This document shows, in pieces, positions 16,425 to 28,528 of a stretch of DNA of 42,975 bases. The first letter of the stretch is position 1. Each line of letters opens with the position of its first letter. The stretch covers positions 1 to 42,975 of the forward strand of contig JAGOQT010000002.1 of NCBI GenBank assembly GCA_018007255.1, read 5' to 3'. The notes under the pieces are model-generated. The model was not told the origin of the DNA, did no database searches, and saw only the letters and a program-made list of their open reading frames with translations. Source of the DNA: Phycisphaerae bacterium (lineage in GTDB: Bacteria; Planctomycetota; Phycisphaerae; Sedimentisphaerales; Anaerobacaceae). The position numbers were made by a program, and so were the translations under genes.

Positions 16425-19326
<2,902 letters not shown>

Positions 19327-19333
19327 CCCGATC

Positions 19334-20443
19334 CTAGCCCAGGTTGATCGGCATGAGCACGTACAAGAAGTCAGGCTCACCCTTGATCACACCCGGCCGG
19401 TCCGGCTGCCCGAGTTGAAGCTCAAACTCCGGGGTTTGCAGAACGCGCAGGGCGTCGCTCAGGAACTGGGGATTGAACCCGATCGCAATGGGAGCCCCTG
19501 TGTAGGCCACCGGCATCTGGATCTCCGCCGCACCCGTCTCCGGGGCCCTCGCGGAGAAGACCATGCCCTCGGGACGGATCGTGACCTTGATGCCCTTGGA
19601 GTCCTCACTGACGAGCAGGGAGGCCCGGCGCACCGCACTCAAGACCACCTCCGTATTCAACGTCAGCTTGGTCTCGTAGTCCCCTGGGATGATGTCCTCA
19701 TACTTGGGGAAGCTCCCCTCCACCAAGTTGGAACTGATCACGACATGGGAGCAGCGAAGGATGAGTTGATTGCCCGCCAGGCGAGCACAAACCACCTCGT
19801 CCTCATCCCCCGAGCCGATCCGCTCCAAGAGACCCATCGTCTTCGCAGGGACAATGAGCCTCTGCTTGGCAACCTCGGGCTTCGCCTGGGACACGAGCGA
19901 GACCCGGCTGCGGGCCAGGCGCCGCCCGTCCGTGGCCACCAAGGACATCTTCTTGCCCTTGACTTCCCAGAGAACGCCATTGATCGCATACCGGCTGCTC
20001 TCTTTGGCCGTGGCGAAGACCACTTGCCTGGTCGCGGTCTGAAGCTCGTCCAGGGGGATCTCCAGATCCGCCTCGCCCTCATACCCGGGAATCGCAGGGT
20101 AGACCTCGGCCTTCTGCGTGAAGATCGTGAAACGGCTGTCCTGGCCCGTGATCTCGCACACCTCATCGGAGCAATCCAAGACGAGCACCTCGTCGCCACT
20201 CTCCCGGACAATCCGGGCCAGCCGATCCGCATCCAGGACCGCATCCCCCTCTCGCTCCACAGTAGCGCCGGAGACCAAGATCGTCAACCCAACCTCCAGG
20301 TCCGTAGCAGACACATGCACCTCCTGGCCTGACGCAAAGAGGCGAAGGCAACGGAGGATGGGTTTGGGTGTACGCGATGGCACGACCGCGGTGATCATGC
20401 TCAGGGCATCGGCCAAAGCAGCTCTGTTGAACTGGACCTTCAT
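19334..20443 (-). CDS. dnaN: DNA polymerase III subunit beta (sliding clamp)
   Basis: A 369-aa sliding-clamp protein that tethers the replicative polymerase to DNA. It begins MKVQFNRAALADALSMITAVV and has three clamp domains, with LRLFASGQEVHVSATDLEVGL, YAINGVLWEVKGKKMSLVATDGRRLA and the C-terminal peptide-binding pocket ending YVLMPINLG. ATG at 20443 matches the family start and has a GGGGG stretch upstream; an in-frame start further up would add five residues. It is first in the dnaN-dciA-gyrB unit. dnaA, usually its upstream neighbour, is absent. Confidence 0.96.
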   Translation of the reverse strand: MKVQFNRAALADALSMITAVVPSRTPKPILRCLRLFASGQEVHVSATDLEVGLTILVSGATVEREGDAVLDADRLARIVRESGDEVLVLDCSDEVCEITGQDSRFTIFTQKAEVYPAIPGYEGEADLEIPLDELQTATRQVVFATAKESSRYAINGVLWEVKGKKMSLVATDGRRLARSRVSLVSQAKPEVAKQRLIVPAKTMGLLERIGSGDEDEVVCARLAGNQLILRCSHVVISSNLVEGSFPKYEDIIPGDYETKLTLNTEVVLSAVRRASLLVSEDSKGIKVTIRPEGMVFSARAPETGAAEIQMPVAYTGAPIAIGFNPQFLSDALRVLQTPEFELQLGQPDRPGVIKGEPDFLYVLMPINLG

Positions 20444-20458
20444 AAACACGACCCCCAA

Positions 20459-21430: not shown

Positions 21431-24400
21431 ATGGACAGGTCTGCTGCAAAGAAGTCGATTCAGCCCGAGGCCGGAAGCCCGTGGTACGTGGGGATCGATG
21501 TGGGGAGCAGTTGTGTTCACTATGCGATCCTCGACGCAGAACAGAACATCGTGTACGCCGCCGCCCCACTCATGCATTTTGCCAACCCGATCGGGGCCGT
21601 GGTGGAGGCCTGGGCGGACATCCAGGCGCACGACACCCAGGCGAGGATAGCGGGCGTGGCCTTCACCGGAAGCGGGGCCAGGGGCTTTGCCAGGGCCATG
21701 CACGGTGTGGTCTACGTCTATGACAGCGTGGCCATTCCCAGGGGCGCAGCCCTGATCCAGCCGGGCGTGCGCCACGTGTTCCATATCGGTGCAAAGGACG
21801 CCTACTTCTTCGAGCTCAAGGGCATCCAAGGCCGGCAAGTCATCCAGGAATGGCGGACCGGGACCAAATGCGGCGGGGGCTCGGGCACCTTGATTGAGAA
21901 GCAGTGCCGACGGCTGTTCGACGCAGAGGTGGGGGTGGCCGATCTGGAGGACACGGCCGATGCGCAGAACAGGGAACAGGCGGACGCGATCCGTGCCCGC
22001 AATCGTGCCCGTCTTCAGGTCCGGCTGGAGCAGATGCTGGCCAGGGCCCAGGCCGAGGCCTCCCGATCGACCGATCCTAGTGAGTTCCTTGCGCGGTGCG
22101 GCGTGGTCATCCAATCCGACCTCATCCACAAACAAAACGAAGGAGCCGTGCGCCCGGACAACCTGGCGGGGCTGTTCCGAACCGTTGCGAGGAATTACCG
22201 GATCGATGTGATCGGATCGCGGACCTTCTCGGGTGCGGCCCACGGGGCCGCCGCAGTGGCGACCGGGGGAGTGATGGCCAGCGATCCCATCCAGGAGCAT
22301 CTGGCCGCGCTGCTGGGCATACCCATCCTGCGCCCCGAGCACTTCGGGAATGTGGCTGCGCTGGGCGCGGCGATGAAGGCCAGAGAAGAGGGGAGCCGAT
22401 CCGTCTTCGACCCGGCCCAACTGGAGCAGGCCGCTCTGGAGAGCCGCAGCCAAAGGGCGTTCGCGCCGGCCCTGTCGGAGTCTCTGGCGGGTGTCCACGA
22501 TCAGACTCAGCCCCTCACAGAGGAAATCCCGGAGGGGACCGAGGTGGTCCTGGGAATCGACGGGGGCAGCACCACCACCAAGGGGGCCCTTGTGGAGCTC
22601 AAAACCGGGCGGTTGTTGGACAAGCTCTACATCAAGACCCACGGCAACCCCGAGGAGTCGCTCAAGCAGGTCATCCGGTATCTGTCCCGGCACAGGGACC
22701 GGGTGGTGGTGCGGGGGGTCGGGGCGACCGGGTCTGCCAGGCGGCTGTACGAGAGGATCCTCGTGAGCCGCAAGAAGGCCGAGGCCCTGGCCCGCGAGGG
22801 GATCGAGAGGGCAGACCGGATCACCGACGAGATCACCTGTCACGCCATGGGGGTCAAGCACTGCAACCCCGCCACGGACACGATCTTCGAGATCGGCGGC
22901 CAGGACATGAAGTTCACCCGGTTTGCAGAGGATGGGACCGTCAAAGAAGCGAAGATGAATTACAGTTGCCAGGCGGGCTCCGGTCAGACGCTGGAGAACA
23001 TGGCGGAGATCCTCAACCTCAATGTGGAGACGACCCTTCAGGAGGCGGCCCTCCGCGCCCCCCGCGTGCCGATCATCGACTCGACCTGCGGGGTGTTCAT
23101 GGAGATGGACGAGAACCGGCTCATTGCGGAGGGGTTCACCCGGGACGAGATCGCCGCGGCCATCGTGCGGGGGACGGCCGCGAGTTACTACTACAAGTTC
23201 GTAGGGGGCGCCCAGCACGTGGGCCAGGTGTGCTCGGCACAGGGGGGACCTCCCCTGGGCAGGGCCTTCCTGGCGGCCCTGGCCCAGGTGACGGAAAGGC
23301 CGATCCAGGCGTATCCCCACCGGGAGATGTTCGGCGCCTGGGGCCAGGCCCTGGATGTGCTCCAGACGATCCAGCGGCTGGACCGTGAGGGGACCCGGCA
23401 GGGCACCGCCTTTCGCGGGTGGGATCTCGTGGACCGCGCATTCGAGAAGCGCAAGGTCGCGTGCCGGCGGCTGTTCCCGGATCAGACGTGCGGTACGCGG
23501 GACTGCCAGTTGGAGGTGTTCTCGATCGAGGACGACCAAATCATCACAGGGGGCTTCTGTCCGCGGGGCAACAGCGAGGGCGCCAAGAAGCCCAAGGTCA
23601 ACTACGTGGACCGGTTTCACAGGATCCTGGAGAAGCACTTCCGGCAGCAAGGAGTCCTCCTGGAGGATCTGAGCGAACCCTGGGTTGCCCAACACGCCGG
23701 GGCCAAGACGATCGGCGTCAAGCGGAGCACGGCCACCCTGAGCGAGAAGGGGATCTGGGCCGCCGCGCTGCTCCGCCGGTTGGGGTTCGTGCCCGTGCTC
23801 TCGTCCCGAAGCGACGCCGAGATCGCCAAGATCGGAGTGGACAACTCCCGCACCGAGTTCTGCATCGCCCGCAAGCTGGCCACGGGCCATGCGGCCGTGC
23901 TCAAGGGGCACCCCCTGGTGCAGTACCTGTTCAACCCCAGCTTCATTGAGCACCGCAAGCCCGAACGACCGGACTTGAAGTACTGCATCTACACCGAGTC
24001 CGAGGGGTACGTGCTCAATGACGTGCTTTCCCTGGACAAGAACAGGCAGTTGAATCCCATCCTCCACTTCGGAGACCTGCCCCTGTTGGTCGAGCAGATC
24101 GGCGTTGAGTTCAAGCGGGTCGGCCTCGAGGTCCCCGCGTCGGGGATCCGGGAGGCCATTGCCCTCGCGGACGAGGCCGAGCGGGCGTTTCTCCAGGAGC
24201 TGTACGCGGAGGGAGACCGTTTCCTGGAACGCGTGGAGAAGGACAACGCAGCCGCCTACGTGGGTCTGGGTCGGGACTACGTGCTGCTCGATCCAGAGGC
24301 GAGCTCGCACTCCGGAGAGATGTTCTCCCAGGTCCGGGGTCTGGACTACATCCCTCAGATCTTCCTGGAGCACAGGTTCCTCGACCTCTCCCTGAAGGAT

Positions 24401-26047
24401 CTGGTGGAGAACGAGTTCTGGGTGGAAAGCGTGAAGATCCTCAAGGCGGGTCTGTTCGTGGCGGGCCACCCGAACCTGTTCGGGATCCGGATGATGAACT
24501 TCGCGTGCGGTCCCGACAGCCTCAAGATCTACCAGGAACGTCGGATCCAGGAGGCGGCCAACAAGCCTCTCCTGGTCCTGCTGACCGACGCGCAGACGAA
24601 CAACGCCCCATTCGTAACCCGGACCGAGGCCCATGAGCGGGTGATTGGCCAAGTCCGGCCCCGGCCGCTCCGGATGCAGGACCTCCGCAGGCGGGTCGAA
24701 GAGCACCGGGACGGGCGGATCTGGCTGGTCCCCTACATGGGAGACGCCAGCCACATCGGCGCGGCGGCGCTGCACCACTTCGGGCTCGAGGGCGAGGTCC
24801 TGCCCACCAACACCGCGCGGGGGTATGAGTTGGCCCGGAAGCACATCTGGACCGAGGTCTGCCATCCGCTCAAGGGCGTGGTGGGCGATGCCCTGGGGTT
24901 CCTCTGGGACCAGGTCGACCGCCGGGGCATGGACTTTGTGCGGAATCGGTACTTGGTCATGCTCCCCACGACCAGCGGCCCGTGCCGGTTCGGAAAGTAC
25001 ACCGAGATCGTGCGCCAGGTCCTGGACGAGGAGGGCTTGCAGGAGGTGCCTGTGGTCGGACCCTCGTCCGAGACGGACTACGTCGATGTGCCGTTCCCGG
25101 AGGGGACCGGCTTCATGGACAAGATGCGGTTTCAGAGGGTTCTGTACAGGGGCATCCAGGCCGTGGATCTCCTGGAGGACACCTGCCTGCGGTTCAGGCC
25201 GTACGCCCTGGACCAGGAGGCGATCGACCGGCTCAGACAGGCCCGCCTGGAGGAGCTGCTGCGGGTGGTCGAGCGAGGGGCGCGCAGGACGGACCTGGTC
25301 CGATGGGGCCGTCAGACCGTAGAGGCGTTCAAGGCCCAGCCCTCGCGCGACGGCGAACGGTTTCCCCTGGTCCTGTACATCGGGGAGATCTACATGCGCC
25401 AGCACGATCCGTACACAGGGCATGTCCTCCGCAGGCTGGAAGCGCAGGGCCTGGAGCTGGTCCGGGACCCGGTCACGGACTGGCTGGAGTACATCAACCA
25501 GACGGTGACCCACAATGCCCGCAGGGACCTACGTCTGGGCTGGAAGTACGGCGACTGGGGGCGGGTCGCGCGCAAGGCCGGCGGGCTGAGCACCTCCGTG
25601 GTCAAGGGCTGGTACATGTCCCGCGTGGGCCAGAGGATCCGGGAGCCGTTTCACGAGGTCCTCGAGGGCCGGCACGTCCTGCCCGGGCCGATGGAGATGC
25701 TCCGGACCCTGGAGGACCGGCATGAGTGTCACCGGAGCATCGAGGGCGAGTCCCCGTTGAGCACGGGGATTGCCTACCACGTCTTGCACGGGCTGACCAA
25801 GCCCGGTGCGGACTGCCGGGTTGCGGGGATCTTCCACGTGGGCCCCTTCACGTGCATGCAGGAAAGCGTGGCCACGGCCAAGATCGAGGCCATGGTCAAG
25901 GAGGTGCGGAGGCAGCATCCGGATCTGGTCCTGCCGATCATCCACGCCTTCTTCGGGGACTCGCCGAATCCGAATCTGGACTGCGAGATTGCGGTCTTTG
26001 CGGAACAGTGCTACCAGAAGCGGGACCTGGTGCAGAGCCCCGCTTGA
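21431..26047 (+). CDS. Giant tandem (R)-2-hydroxyacyl-CoA dehydratase activase-like protein (BcrAD/BadFG x2 + DUF2229-like)
   Basis: A 1538-aa protein. Two ASKHA ATPase domains of the BadF/BadG/BcrA/BcrD type stand in tandem: the first starts with YVGIDVGSSC near residue 20, the second with VLGIDGGSTTTKGALVE near 375. Domain 2 has Cys513 (NYSCQAGSGQ) and Cys553 (DSTCGVFMEMDEN), spaced like the iron-sulfur ligands of HgdC; domain 1 has Cys147 (TKCGGGSG). A DUF2229-like region starts near 757 (KTIGVKRSTATLSEKG). The C-terminal third resembles dehydratase D-component proteins (GIFHVGPFTCMQ, IIHAFFGDSPNPN). Activases drive ATP-dependent one-electron reduction. The substrate is unknown and no separate dehydratase subunits are nearby. 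GGAG lies 7 bp before ATG. Confidence 0.88.
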   Translation: MDRSAAKKSIQPEAGSPWYVGIDVGSSCVHYAILDAEQNIVYAAAPLMHFANPIGAVVEAWADIQAHDTQARIAGVAFTGSGARGFARAMHGVVYVYDSVAIPRGAALIQPGVRHVFHIGAKDAYFFELKGIQGRQVIQEWRTGTKCGGGSGTLIEKQCRRLFDAEVGVADLEDTADAQNREQADAIRARNRARLQVRLEQMLARAQAEASRSTDPSEFLARCGVVIQSDLIHKQNEGAVRPDNLAGLFRTVARNYRIDVIGSRTFSGAAHGAAAVATGGVMASDPIQEHLAALLGIPILRPEHFGNVAALGAAMKAREEGSRSVFDPAQLEQAALESRSQRAFAPALSESLAGVHDQTQPLTEEIPEGTEVVLGIDGGSTTTKGALVELKTGRLLDKLYIKTHGNPEESLKQVIRYLSRHRDRVVVRGVGATGSARRLYERILVSRKKAEALAREGIERADRITDEITCHAMGVKHCNPATDTIFEIGGQDMKFTRFAEDGTVKEAKMNYSCQAGSGQTLENMAEILNLNVETTLQEAALRAPRVPIIDSTCGVFMEMDENRLIAEGFTRDEIAAAIVRGTAASYYYKFVGGAQHVGQVCSAQGGPPLGRAFLAALAQVTERPIQAYPHREMFGAWGQALDVLQTIQRLDREGTRQGTAFRGWDLVDRAFEKRKVACRRLFPDQTCGTRDCQLEVFSIEDDQIITGGFCPRGNSEGAKKPKVNYVDRFHRILEKHFRQQGVLLEDLSEPWVAQHAGAKTIGVKRSTATLSEKGIWAAALLRRLGFVPVLSSRSDAEIAKIGVDNSRTEFCIARKLATGHAAVLKGHPLVQYLFNPSFIEHRKPERPDLKYCIYTESEGYVLNDVLSLDKNRQLNPILHFGDLPLLVEQIGVEFKRVGLEVPASGIREAIALADEAERAFLQELYAEGDRFLERVEKDNAAAYVGLGRDYVLLDPEASSHSGEMFSQVRGLDYIPQIFLEHRFLDLSLKDLVENEFWVESVKILKAGLFVAGHPNLFGIRMMNFACGPDSLKIYQERRIQEAANKPLLVLLTDAQTNNAPFVTRTEAHERVIGQVRPRPLRMQDLRRRVEEHRDGRIWLVPYMGDASHIGAAALHHFGLEGEVLPTNTARGYELARKHIWTEVCHPLKGVVGDALGFLWDQVDRRGMDFVRNRYLVMLPTTSGPCRFGKYTEIVRQVLDEEGLQEVPVVGPSSETDYVDVPFPEGTGFMDKMRFQRVLYRGIQAVDLLEDTCLRFRPYALDQEAIDRLRQARLEELLRVVERGARRTDLVRWGRQTVEAFKAQPSRDGERFPLVLYIGEIYMRQHDPYTGHVLRRLEAQGLELVRDPVTDWLEYINQTVTHNARRDLRLGWKYGDWGRVARKAGGLSTSVVKGWYMSRVGQRIREPFHEVLEGRHVLPGPMEMLRTLEDRHECHRSIEGESPLSTGIAYHVLHGLTKPGADCRVAGIFHVGPFTCMQESVATAKIEAMVKEVRRQHPDLVLPIIHAFFGDSPNPNLDCEIAVFAEQCYQKRDLVQSPA

Positions 26048-26108: not shown

Positions 26109-27383
26109 CTACTTGACCTCCAGCACGGAGTCGTACTCCCCGTACGGGTTGATCTCTGTCTTCTCGTTGTACGGGTCCTGCTGCCAGCGCCCGTCCACCA
26201 CGTAGCGGTACCGATAGTGCCCCTCGGCCAGGGGGATCTTGGCCTGCCAGACGCCCGTATTTCCGACTCTCTCCATCGGGTTAAGCTGGGGCTGCCAGTT
26301 GTTGAAGTCCGCGGCGATCTGCACGCTCTTGGCCCGCGGATACAGGGTCACGAACAGGGCCGCGCCCTGGGCCTGGCTGACGCCGTAATAGGAGGCCAGC
26401 CGGGCCTCCGTCTCGGCGGGCTTGGGCTCCTGCGAGGGCGGGGGTGGTGCAATGGTGCGGATCTCAGGTCGGGCCGTGGCCCCGGCCTCGGACGCGGGTT
26501 TCGCCGGGACGGTCGCATCCTTCTCCTGGGTCGCGGCCAGGAGTTCGCTGGCCGTGGTGCTGATGGACTCGAGCTGCTCGGCCAGGGAGTTGATGATCTG
26601 CCGGCTCTCCTGGACCGGCTCGGCCCCAAGGATCTCCTCGGCCAGGCGGCGGAAGTCCTGCTGGCCCTTGCTGGCCGGATCGTATTCGTTGATCGGCTGG
26701 CCGAAACTGGCCGCTTCCTTGATCTTGGTGTTGAAATTGACCACGGTCTTGAGCATATGGTCCGGAAACTGCGTGCGGAGCTCCCCGAGGACCTCGCGGG
26801 CCATCTTCGTGCGGATGTCGTACATGCTGGCCAGGACCATGACGCGGATCTGCTGCTTGCACCGCTGACACAGGAGACGGAGCGTCTCGAGCTGCTTGCT
26901 CAGACCGTGGAGGGCGAAGTAGCCGGTCTCGGCGGGAACGATCACGTCCGTGGCGGCGCGCAGGGCGTTGAAGGTCAGCAGGCCCACGGCCGGGGGACAG
27001 TCGATCACCACGAACTGGTACACGTCGGACACGCGGTCCAGGACCCGGCGCAGGCACATCTCCCGTTCATCCACCCCGGCCATCTGCTGCTCAAAGGCCG
27101 ACAGATCCAGGCTGGCGGGGGCCAGGTCGAGCCGATCGTTGATCTGCCACAGGATCTCCGAGAGGGGGAGGGTCTCGTTTCGAGTCTGGTTGATCAGGCA
27201 ATCGTAGATGCTCTGCTCGATCTGTTCCTCGGGCACAGCCAGGCCCACCGCGCAGTGCGATTGGGGGTCCATGTCCACGAGCAGAACCTTCTGGCCGAGC
27301 TTGGCCAGGGCACTGGCCAGGTTGATGGATACCGTTGTCTTGCCGCACCCGCCCTTCTGGTTGACCACTGCTACGGTTCTCAT
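26109..27383 (-). CDS. ParA/MinD-type ATPase fused to an AMPK-beta/CBM48-like glycogen-binding module
   Basis: A 424-aa protein. Residues 1-255 are a ParA-type ATPase: deviant Walker A KGGCGKTT (10-17), VDMDPQSH (36-43) and Walker B VVIDCPPAVG (125-134). A low-complexity Ala/Pro/Glu linker covers about 285-330. Residues 341-424 follow the AMPK-beta / CBM48 pattern: VQIAADFNNW (354-363, with Trp363), GVWQAKIPLAEGHYRYRYVV (377-396) and DGRW (397-400, Trp400). The two Trp align with the carbohydrate-stacking residues of AMPK-beta. It may position or sense glycogen granules, by inference only. ATG at 27383 fits the ParA start. No parB is adjacent. Confidence 0.88.
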   Translation of the reverse strand: MRTVAVVNQKGGCGKTTVSINLASALAKLGQKVLLVDMDPQSHCAVGLAVPEEQIEQSIYDCLINQTRNETLPLSEILWQINDRLDLAPASLDLSAFEQQMAGVDEREMCLRRVLDRVSDVYQFVVIDCPPAVGLLTFNALRAATDVIVPAETGYFALHGLSKQLETLRLLCQRCKQQIRVMVLASMYDIRTKMAREVLGELRTQFPDHMLKTVVNFNTKIKEAASFGQPINEYDPASKGQQDFRRLAEEILGAEPVQESRQIINSLAEQLESISTTASELLAATQEKDATVPAKPASEAGATARPEIRTIAPPPPSQEPKPAETEARLASYYGVSQAQGAALFVTLYPRAKSVQIAADFNNWQPQLNPMERVGNTGVWQAKIPLAEGHYRYRYVVDGRWQQDPYNEKTEINPYGEYDSVLEVK

Positions 27384-27523: not shown

Positions 27524-27703
27524 GCAACTTTGTGCCTTTATGGGACGGGTGCCTGGAAACCGCGTAACAACACCAAAAACCCCTCCTGTACAGGCCCTCC
27601 TATGCTGAGAAAGAGGGCGTGCGGGGCCCTGGGAGAGAGGGCATGCAGGACTTGGAGACGCAATGGGCCCCAGCCCGCGGGGTCGAATTCGTACACACGG
27701 GGG

Positions 27704-27732
27704 TTGCCACGGGCCTGCGGTTCGCTTAGACT
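27704..27732 (+). promoter_or_regulatory. Promoter of the nucleotidyltransferase-like gene
   Basis: TTGCCA (27704-27709), a 17-bp spacer and TAGACT (27727-27732). The ATG follows at 27770, with GAGGAC in between. Confidence 0.6.
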
Positions 27733-27769
27733 CCCGCATCTGGCTGGTCCAGTTTGGACGAGGACTCGG

Positions 27770-28528
27770 ATGGCGCGAAACGGACTTCAACCTGTGCTTG
27801 AAGGTCTGCCCGCGGAGGTGGGGCCGCTGCTGGAGGGCTTCTGCAAGCGGCTGCAGGCCCTGCTCAAGGACGACCTGCAGAGTCTCACGGTGGTGGGCAG
27901 CTGTGTGAGCGGGGACTTCCTTCCCGGCGTCAGCGACGTCAACACCCTGGTCCTGCTCTCCGAGCTCCACCAAGGCTCCCTGGCGGGATTGGCCGGGCTG
28001 GTGAAGGCCTTCAGGAGGCACCGGGTCTGTGCACCGTGGGTCATGACAGAGGCATGCCTGGAGCGATCGCGCAGGGTGTTCGGCGTCGAGTGGCTGGACT
28101 TTCAGGCACAGCACCTGACCCTGGTGGGCATGGACCCCTTGGTGGGCCTGACCTTTGAGAAGGCGGACGTGCGGCTGCAGTGCGAGCGGGAGCTGCAGGC
28201 CACGTTGGTGAGGCTGCGTGAAGGCCTGATCGCCGCGGGCCTCGACAGGGCTGCTGTCCGAGGACTGCTCATCCGCGCGGCCAAGTCCCTGTTGCCTGTG
28301 CTGAGGGCCATGCTCTGGCAGGTGGACCTGGAGCGCCCCCCCGGCAGGGGACCGACCTGCGGCCAGGCGTGGGAGGCCTTTGGCGTCCAGATGCAGGGCG
28401 TTCTGTCTGTGTTGAAGTGGCATGAGCAGGGTTGCAGGGTGTCGGCGAGGGACCTGGAGGTGGCCTTTGACTCGGTATACGCGGCGGTGGATCAACTGGC
28501 CTACCTCGTGGACGAGCTGGAGGTCTGA
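27770..28528 (+). CDS. Nucleotidyltransferase-fold protein with a degenerate active site
   Basis: A 252-aa protein. Residues 39-62 read LTVVGSCVSGDFLPGVSDVN then TLVL. This is the GS-x(n)-DxD pattern of the KNTase / polymerase-beta superfamily, but the second acidic residue is Asn (D56-V57-N58). The rest is helical, with many Leu and a C-terminal four-helix-like stretch (LLIRAAKSLLPVLRAMLW; VAFDSVYAAVDQLAYLVDELEV). Such SDVN/SDIN proteins are widespread and uncharacterised; catalysis is doubtful. ATG at 27770 has GAGGAC at a good distance. It is convergent with maf and shows no operon partner. Confidence 0.75.
   Translation: MARNGLQPVLEGLPAEVGPLLEGFCKRLQALLKDDLQSLTVVGSCVSGDFLPGVSDVNTLVLLSELHQGSLAGLAGLVKAFRRHRVCAPWVMTEACLERSRRVFGVEWLDFQAQHLTLVGMDPLVGLTFEKADVRLQCERELQATLVRLREGLIAAGLDRAAVRGLLIRAAKSLLPVLRAMLWQVDLERPPGRGPTCGQAWEAFGVQMQGVLSVLKWHEQGCRVSARDLEVAFDSVYAAVDQLAYLVDELEV

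Follow-up and report, generated by a model that had tools for sequence, protein, structure and literature searches.

The DNA analyzed here, a 42,975-nucleotide stretch from a Phycisphaerae bacterium that we call the window, carries a parA-CBM48 fusion gene on its minus strand (27383..26109), encoding a protein of 424 residues. Its features are listed below, with the evidence for each.

26109..27383, minus strand: parA-CBM48 fusion gene, 424 amino acids plus stop (open reading frame, Pfam, PDB sequence matches, homologues, model)
26616..27383, minus strand: ParA domain, residues 1-256, with QKGGCGKTT, VDMDP, and VIDCPP (AAA_31; structural Z to Soj 9a6n and to 8ray)
27333..27359, minus strand: deviant Walker A motif, residues 9-17 (K10 and K15 in 106/106 aligned fusions, the P-loop having been used in choosing the rows)
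26517..26594, minus strand: linker helix, residues 264-289 (model; L..IS..A.ELL pattern in the window's order)
26382..26516, minus strand: variable linker, residues 290-334 (alignment; mostly low model confidence)
26112..26381, minus strand: CBM48/AMPK-beta-type module, residues 335-424 (Pfam, tail profile, model, alignment)

An upstream TTG (27527) would give a longer open reading frame, but we favor the ATG at 27383 because the N termini of homologues begin there too (MRTxAVxNQKGG). Nearby on the minus strand lie consecutive gyrB, dciA, and dnaN genes (16425-20458), an origin-type neighborhood. A plus-strand gene for a 1538-residue BcrAD_BadFG/DUF2229 CoA-enzyme activase (21431-26047) adjoins the fusion, and a relative of it is found near the fusion in a few other loci. 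On the other side, the divergent neighbor (27530-28528, plus strand) has a nucleotidyltransferase match below the cut-off (PF01909, 0.0056) and relatives in five other loci. We considered conserved neighbors as a clue to cargo and abandoned the idea, as none is constant in the window's order and the recurrent ones are lineage-limited.

The original prediction, made from the letters alone, was that a complete deviant Walker A ATPase is fused here to a glycogen-binding type of module. Pfam and PDB sequence matches agree on the two-domain architecture and on the identity of both domains, and a complete ParA with a CBM48/AMPK-beta-type tail in one real open reading frame is confirmed. Residues 1-180 match AAA_31 (1.2e-49), and residues 2-252 match the ParA-family chain 8ray (5e-50). 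For the C terminus, where a profile search had been proposed as a check, both AMPK1_CBM (2.9e-10, 40.6 bits against a cut-off of 26.8, residues 351-424) and CBM_48 (6.1e-10, 39.7 bits against 22.4, residues 349-414) exceed their curated cut-offs. Residues 351-424 also match AMPK beta-1 (1z0n) in the PDB at 3.4e-6, and a profile built from 28 tails matches the same chain at 9.2e-9. The model of the whole protein (53 sequences) has a mean pLDDT of 87.7, with a helix at 264-289 and values below 50 at residues 291-320. The 50 structure matches listed for it are occupied by ParA chains and include no CBM48 structure.

How widespread is this architecture? Among the matches listed for 61 genomes, the window's own included, 43 have a match spanning the ParA part and the tail (in two pieces in two of them). 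Eight further genomes have a ParA part 60-70% identical in frames of 368-503 residues, and one (G007) has only a 134-residue piece. The fusion is missing from the other nine (G015, G020, G022, G025, G027, G038, G039, G044, and G048), three of which (G039, G044, and G048) are single-contig genomes that are 98-99% complete. The best 80 of 452 loci bear planctomycete labels (Planctomycetota, Phycisphaerae, Phycisphaerales, Phycisphaeraceae, Sedimentisphaerales, and so on), apart from two labeled "uncultured bacterium" and one Omnitrophota; 14 of these 80 were fusion-negative by regular expression, comprising seven cut by a contig end, three fused but missed (L122, L124, and L137), and four truly unfused. 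The fusion therefore belongs to a family spread across the class Phycisphaerae. The tail profile itself matches 178 of 392 genomes of the phylum, and in all 12 further loci opened outside the class the module frame lacks a P-loop, so that the module ranges much more widely than the fusion. Among the fusions translated, only L193 and L128 fall outside the class, the latter a 361-residue ParA-CBM48 protein without a partner gene, on a contig labeled Candidatus Omnitrophota (transfer or mis-binning). A fragment of a Phycisphaerae-type fusion (L112) lies on a contig labeled Candidatus Kuenenia stuttgartiensis and is possibly mis-binned. No plasmid record among the best 5000 covers 80% of the query. 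In agreement with the original remark that no described system of this kind is known, the titles and abstract openings of the top literature matches describe neither a ParA fused to CBM48 nor a ParA for glycogen.

For residue-level comparison, we translated 106 distinct fusions, merging rows that share their first 200 residues. Since these rows were chosen by regular expressions for the P-loop and the CBM, and many were fetched by WQQDPYN or [IV]A[GA]DFN[NG]W, the invariance of P-loop and CBM motifs among them is partly built in; a set of 28 homologues, picked by whole-protein similarity, is free of that.

The N-terminal domain is almost certainly a ParA-like ATPase, judging by its motifs and matches. 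Its model is closest to Soj 9a6n (Z 36.4) and ParA 8ray (35.3), followed by MinD (28.1), BcsQ (26.9), and FleN (26.7), and its identity to Soj-type structures is 35-40%. Among family models, none of the 25 NCBIfam matches listed reaches its cut-off (ParA_partition, 105.6 against 180 bits), the BcsQ Pfam model PF06564 matches above its cut-off, and the BcsQ equivalog TIGR03371 scores 95.0 bits against 157.85. Roles of DNA-binding and catalytic positions were taken from PMC12462528 and PMC3778016, the numbering of the former being carried over by hand on the 8ray alignment with D60A as anchor (D60 to D39, R238 to K220). K10, K15, and D39 (the equivalent of Myxococcus xanthus ParA D60) occur in 106/106 fusions, the P-loop having served in row selection. 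Both basic positions implicated in DNA binding are mostly kept: R191 in 97/106, and Lys or Arg at 220 in 103/106, with R191 and K220 in the window protein (mapped by hand via 8ray from Bs R189 and R218, R191 by offset only). Nucleoid binding by the ParA part is thus probable. Much of the ParB-peptide pocket is shared as well. Mapped by hand, V116 corresponds to Q99, L150 to V133, L152 to L135, L155 to F138, L187 to L170, and L192 to C175; one of these six positions, V116, is Gln in 74/106 fusions. The protein thus has in common with Soj/ParA of ParABS systems (Thermus thermophilus, Helicobacter pylori, M. xanthus) the fold, the deviant Walker A motif, the catalytic Asp, in most members the basic DNA-binding residues, and much of the pocket. 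It differs in having a long linker and a CBM48 tail, in reading NFNTKIKE where 8ray has PRNVRLSE, and in the lack of an adjacent parB gene. On that last point the original observation that there is no ParB next door extends further, as the window's own genome (87% complete) has no ParB_N match at all. ParB_N matches occur in 56/61 genomes, and among those listed none is less than 7 kb from a fusion, the nearest being a weak one at 7.4 kb in G016. Further ParA genes are present at 33-43% identity.

We then considered whether the tail could bind sugar. In AMPK beta, W100, K126, W133, and N150 are critical (PMC4032982), L146 and T148 mutants likewise bind poorly (PMC2642990), and T148D abolishes glycogen binding (PMC4416872). 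Alignment to AMPK beta-1 equates W363 with W100, R393 with K126, W400 with W133, E416 with T148, and D418 with N150. The two Trp residues, whose conservation was one of the checks set in the original prediction, are invariant in 28/28 homologues picked without any CBM motif, and R393, an Arg for K126 at a position outside every selection pattern, is found in 106/106 fusions. The N150 position is Asn in 100/106 (L061, for example), and Asp (D418) in the window protein. The T148 position is acidic in 84/106 (E 65, D 19, G 18, Q 4), including the window protein (E416), which thus departs from a strict AMPK glycogen-binding domain at both the T148 and the N150 sugar contacts. The module therefore resembles that of AMPK beta in its Pfam matches, in the W100, W133, K126 (as Arg), and G147 positions, and, in most members, in the Asn at N150; it differs in its mostly acidic T148 position and in sitting on a ParA ATPase rather than in a kinase complex. 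As read from the alignment, the binding platform is kept, with two contacts altered in the window copy (E416 and D418). An alpha-glucan is a reasonably likely ligand of the module.

Outside the window's lineage, the gene next downstream of the fusion, in the same direction, often encodes a second protein of 386-844 residues, which we refer to as the partner. A profile made from 22 seeds, themselves picked as downstream of a fusion, matches beside 34 of the 106 fusions, including 13 whose partners neither served as seeds nor duplicate one; our script scored 30, and L182, L185, L188, and L189, dropped by its overlap and length rules, were added by hand. A shorter candidate at L193 (328 residues), missed by the profile, was accepted by eye, bringing the count to 35/106, with a contig end within 900 bases of five fusions. 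Three more partner-flanked fusions had been left out by the CBM regular expression: L181, L207 (= L179), and L209 (= L192). Fusion and partner also occur together in a complete genome (L122, CP087563.1). On the fusion tree, rooted at midpoint only and with L128 and L193 on long branches, a partner adjoins the fusion in 35 of the 40 rows that do not belong to the window's clade of 66 rows. The presence of a partner changes three times over the tree, compared with a mean of 29.8 after shuffling (0 of 500 shuffles as low). This distribution is compatible with an ancestral fusion-partner pair that would have been lost in the window's 66-row clade, in L116/L118/L125/L137, and in L128.

In the window's family, two profile searches with different alignments detected no partner. 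A relocated partner was entertained and set aside, as the matches in the loci opened were of the FlhG/MinD type with a P-loop. Other matches in this family were a partial one in G036 (0.0013, first alignment only) and one in G009 (second alignment), and a diverged partner may exist there. With Asp at 418 and no partner found, the window protein is a less typical family member. The original suggestion that the module may itself replace the usual adaptor is thus incomplete: it may hold in the window's lineage, but in most of the other rows a partner whose motif resembles that of ParB lies next to the fusion.

What kind of protein is the partner? No Pfam family scores above cut-off in six whole partner proteins, and the C-terminal domain has no notable match in four (best 0.18). 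A model of the partner (ten sequences, mean pLDDT 65.4) resembles FlhG across some 180 residues (Z 13.6, rmsd 3.9 Å), with FleN next. It lacks a P-loop, the segment in question reading G(N/H)LP or HL in the rows examined, whereas the FlhG/MinD-type genes in 26/26 other loci keep theirs. At the N terminus the partners have the motif RGIxSIAHLFLS (LGRGIEDFI in L193), similar to the ParB motif of M. xanthus, L11-x-R13-x-L15-xx-L18-I19 (PMC12462528). Phycisphaeraceae partners read LDxLADLFLT, keeping the hydrophobic pattern and losing Arg-Gly, and the match to the ParB motif is therefore weaker there. Partners of ParA/MinD ATPases are held to work via positively charged N termini (PMC10241942). 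Model and motifs together point to a family without a Pfam match (for example, L113 10286-11719 and its homologues) that is predicted to have an FlhG/MinD-like fold, no P-loop, a ParB-like N terminus, and an extra C-terminal domain; the last three set it apart from FlhG and FleN. Such a family would represent a kind of ParA partner not seen before. We also asked whether the partner motif had been transferred into the linker helix of the fusion. This idea was rejected, as the helix occurs in fusions with and without a partner gene, and partner-bearing fusions have a comparable sequence at that place.

Of the best 80 of 452 loci, four (L102, L108, L115, and L127) contain the module in unfused form. 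These modules are 113-122 residues long and 50-58% identical to the window's module, and 4/4 are preceded on their own strand by a GH57 gene. The module frame of L102 and L115 overlaps the end of the GH57 gene, which is itself preceded by a GT4/GT5-like gene, and further along in L115 the opposite strand carries genes for a 4-alpha-glucanotransferase and another GH57 protein; these two loci are clear alpha-glucan operons. The GH57 frame of L108 matches adh_short as well and is possibly a join. The genomes of L102 and L108 (MHXZ01 and MHYA01) also contain a ParA fusion (L100 and L105, respectively). In a tree of 111 modules, built on 87 columns and thus of low resolution with bootstrap unsettled, the four are nested among the fused ones, under a node supported at 98/97. 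The module's link to alpha-glucan gains support from these closest unfused relatives behind GH57 genes. Since the T148 position is acidic in three of the four, that residue alone does not separate fused modules from GH57-adjacent ones.

Four remoter unfused modules (L171, L200, L204, and L206) have no alpha-glucan match in the stretch examined, and a tblastn search with five alpha-glucan enzymes over 120 loci (up to 20 kb each) matched only the four unfused-module loci, with nothing in the other 116; the same five gave no match in the whole window. An unfused CBM match (L170) in G044, a single-contig genome without a ParA fusion, lies beside a cluster of debranching-enzyme, GlgB-, GlgA-, and phosphorylase-like genes. 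The window's own genome encodes an alpha-glucan phosphorylase (TIGR02094, 864.9 bits against a cut-off of 191.7), a GlgP-type phosphorylase, and two GH57-GT5 fusion proteins of more than 900 residues (L168 and L169), one of which shares a contig with the GlgP-type phosphorylase gene. The contig of the fusion in G001 also has a phosphorylase match, some 16 kb away.

Two enzymes were tried as correlates of the fusion across the 61 genomes and discarded. Classic glycogen synthase is uninformative, as none of the 61 has a glgA match above the TIGR02095 cut-off and the best two scores are in genomes without a fusion. Phosphorylase (PF00343) is found in 58/61 and is absent from G004, G020, and G039, though G004 has a fusion, making for a weak correlate confounded by completeness. 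Among the fusion-less single-contig genomes, G039 lacks phosphorylase and GT5 matches as well, and G044 and G048 retain both a phosphorylase match and a GlgA-like gene, which means that storage can do without the fusion. Glycogen degradation has been predicted in Sedimentisphaerales, in passages that make no mention of the ParA-CBM48 protein (PMC11266412).

Our best reading is that the protein is a ParA that carries an alpha-glucan receptor, or is gated by it. In its main form, to which we assign a probability of roughly 0.45, it would be a ParA/MinD-type positioning ATPase of Phycisphaerae with its own alpha-glucan cargo receptor. ATP-bound ParA-CBM48 dimers would ride the nucleoid, the tail would hold glycogen-like alpha-glucan particles, or the enzymes attached to these, and the partner's N-terminal motif would set off ATP hydrolysis and thereby release the dimer, so that particles would be distributed within the cell or divided among the daughter cells. 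As no adjacent partner was found in the window's lineage, another trigger would have to replace it there: the binding of glucan, the linker helix, or a protein encoded elsewhere. That particle positioning is the purpose is a tentative proposal. More tentative still is the complete scheme of a storage-polysaccharide partition system, in which the ParA tail would grip glycogen-like particles and carry them over the nucleoid, a dead FlhG-fold protein would trigger hydrolysis by its ParB-like N-terminal helix, and the window's glucan-bound ParA would work without a partner. The closest parallels would be McdAB carboxysome positioning and other ParA/MinD cargo systems, which likewise have a ParA apart from ParABS and a partner with a distinct N-terminal motif (PMC10241942). 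They differ in that here a receptor-type module is on the ATPase, the partner has a MinD/FlhG fold without a P-loop, and the cargo would be a polysaccharide.

A serious but less likely alternative is that the protein senses the energy store, the module reading free alpha-glucan and gating an ATPase that regulates other proteins, as FleN acts on FleQ, rather than moving particles. The AMPK domain acts as a glycogen sensor, inhibiting its kinase (PMC2642990), the interdomain linker is long and partly of low model confidence, gene surroundings differ within the window's order, which would suit a general regulator, and the partner is FlhG/FleN-like. Yet the ParA part is nearest to the DNA-riding Soj and not to FleN (Z 36.4 and 26.7), basic residues are mostly kept at both DNA-binding positions, and no conserved candidate target gene lies nearby. 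A second serious rival, slightly less likely, is that the cargo (an appendage, or envelope or polysaccharide export machinery) is set by the partner, in the manner of FlhG and BcsQ, and that the CBM48 fold is a protein-binding module with no sugar ligand. The acidic T148 position, D418 in the window copy, the FlhG-like fold of the partner, and the PF06564 match of the ATPase would all suit this explanation, as would the pair in G040, where it is favored by a divergent run of type IV pilus/type II secretion genes: on L172 1-5717 (the same locus as L113) there are PilM, PilN, PilO, and two T2SSE-type ATPase genes. However, this pilus neighborhood is seen in one locus only, the stacking Trp residues and the basic K126 position are kept in 106/106 (the Trp motifs having been partly used in selection), the nearest unfused modules lie behind GH57 genes and, in three of the four, have an acidic T148 position, and the window's lineage retains the module without a partner. 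Finally, it is very improbable that the protein is a standard ParA for chromosome or plasmid partition whose tail is incidental, for despite the 35-40% identity to Soj-type structures the own genome lacks ParB_N, the ParB_N matches listed in 56/61 genomes never come within 7 kb of a fusion, further ParA genes exist, the tail is conserved across the class, and no plasmid record among the best 5000 covers 80% of the query.

Among the cargoes that ParA/MinD ATPases place via separate partner proteins are DNA, carboxysomes, flagella, and chemotaxis arrays (PMC10241942). In Escherichia coli, glycogen collects by preference at the old pole, which renders both the position of the nucleoid and division asymmetric (PMC12706056), and active placement would thus solve a real problem. 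If the positioning reading is true, stored carbon would join the list of ParA cargoes, with the receptor on the motor itself.
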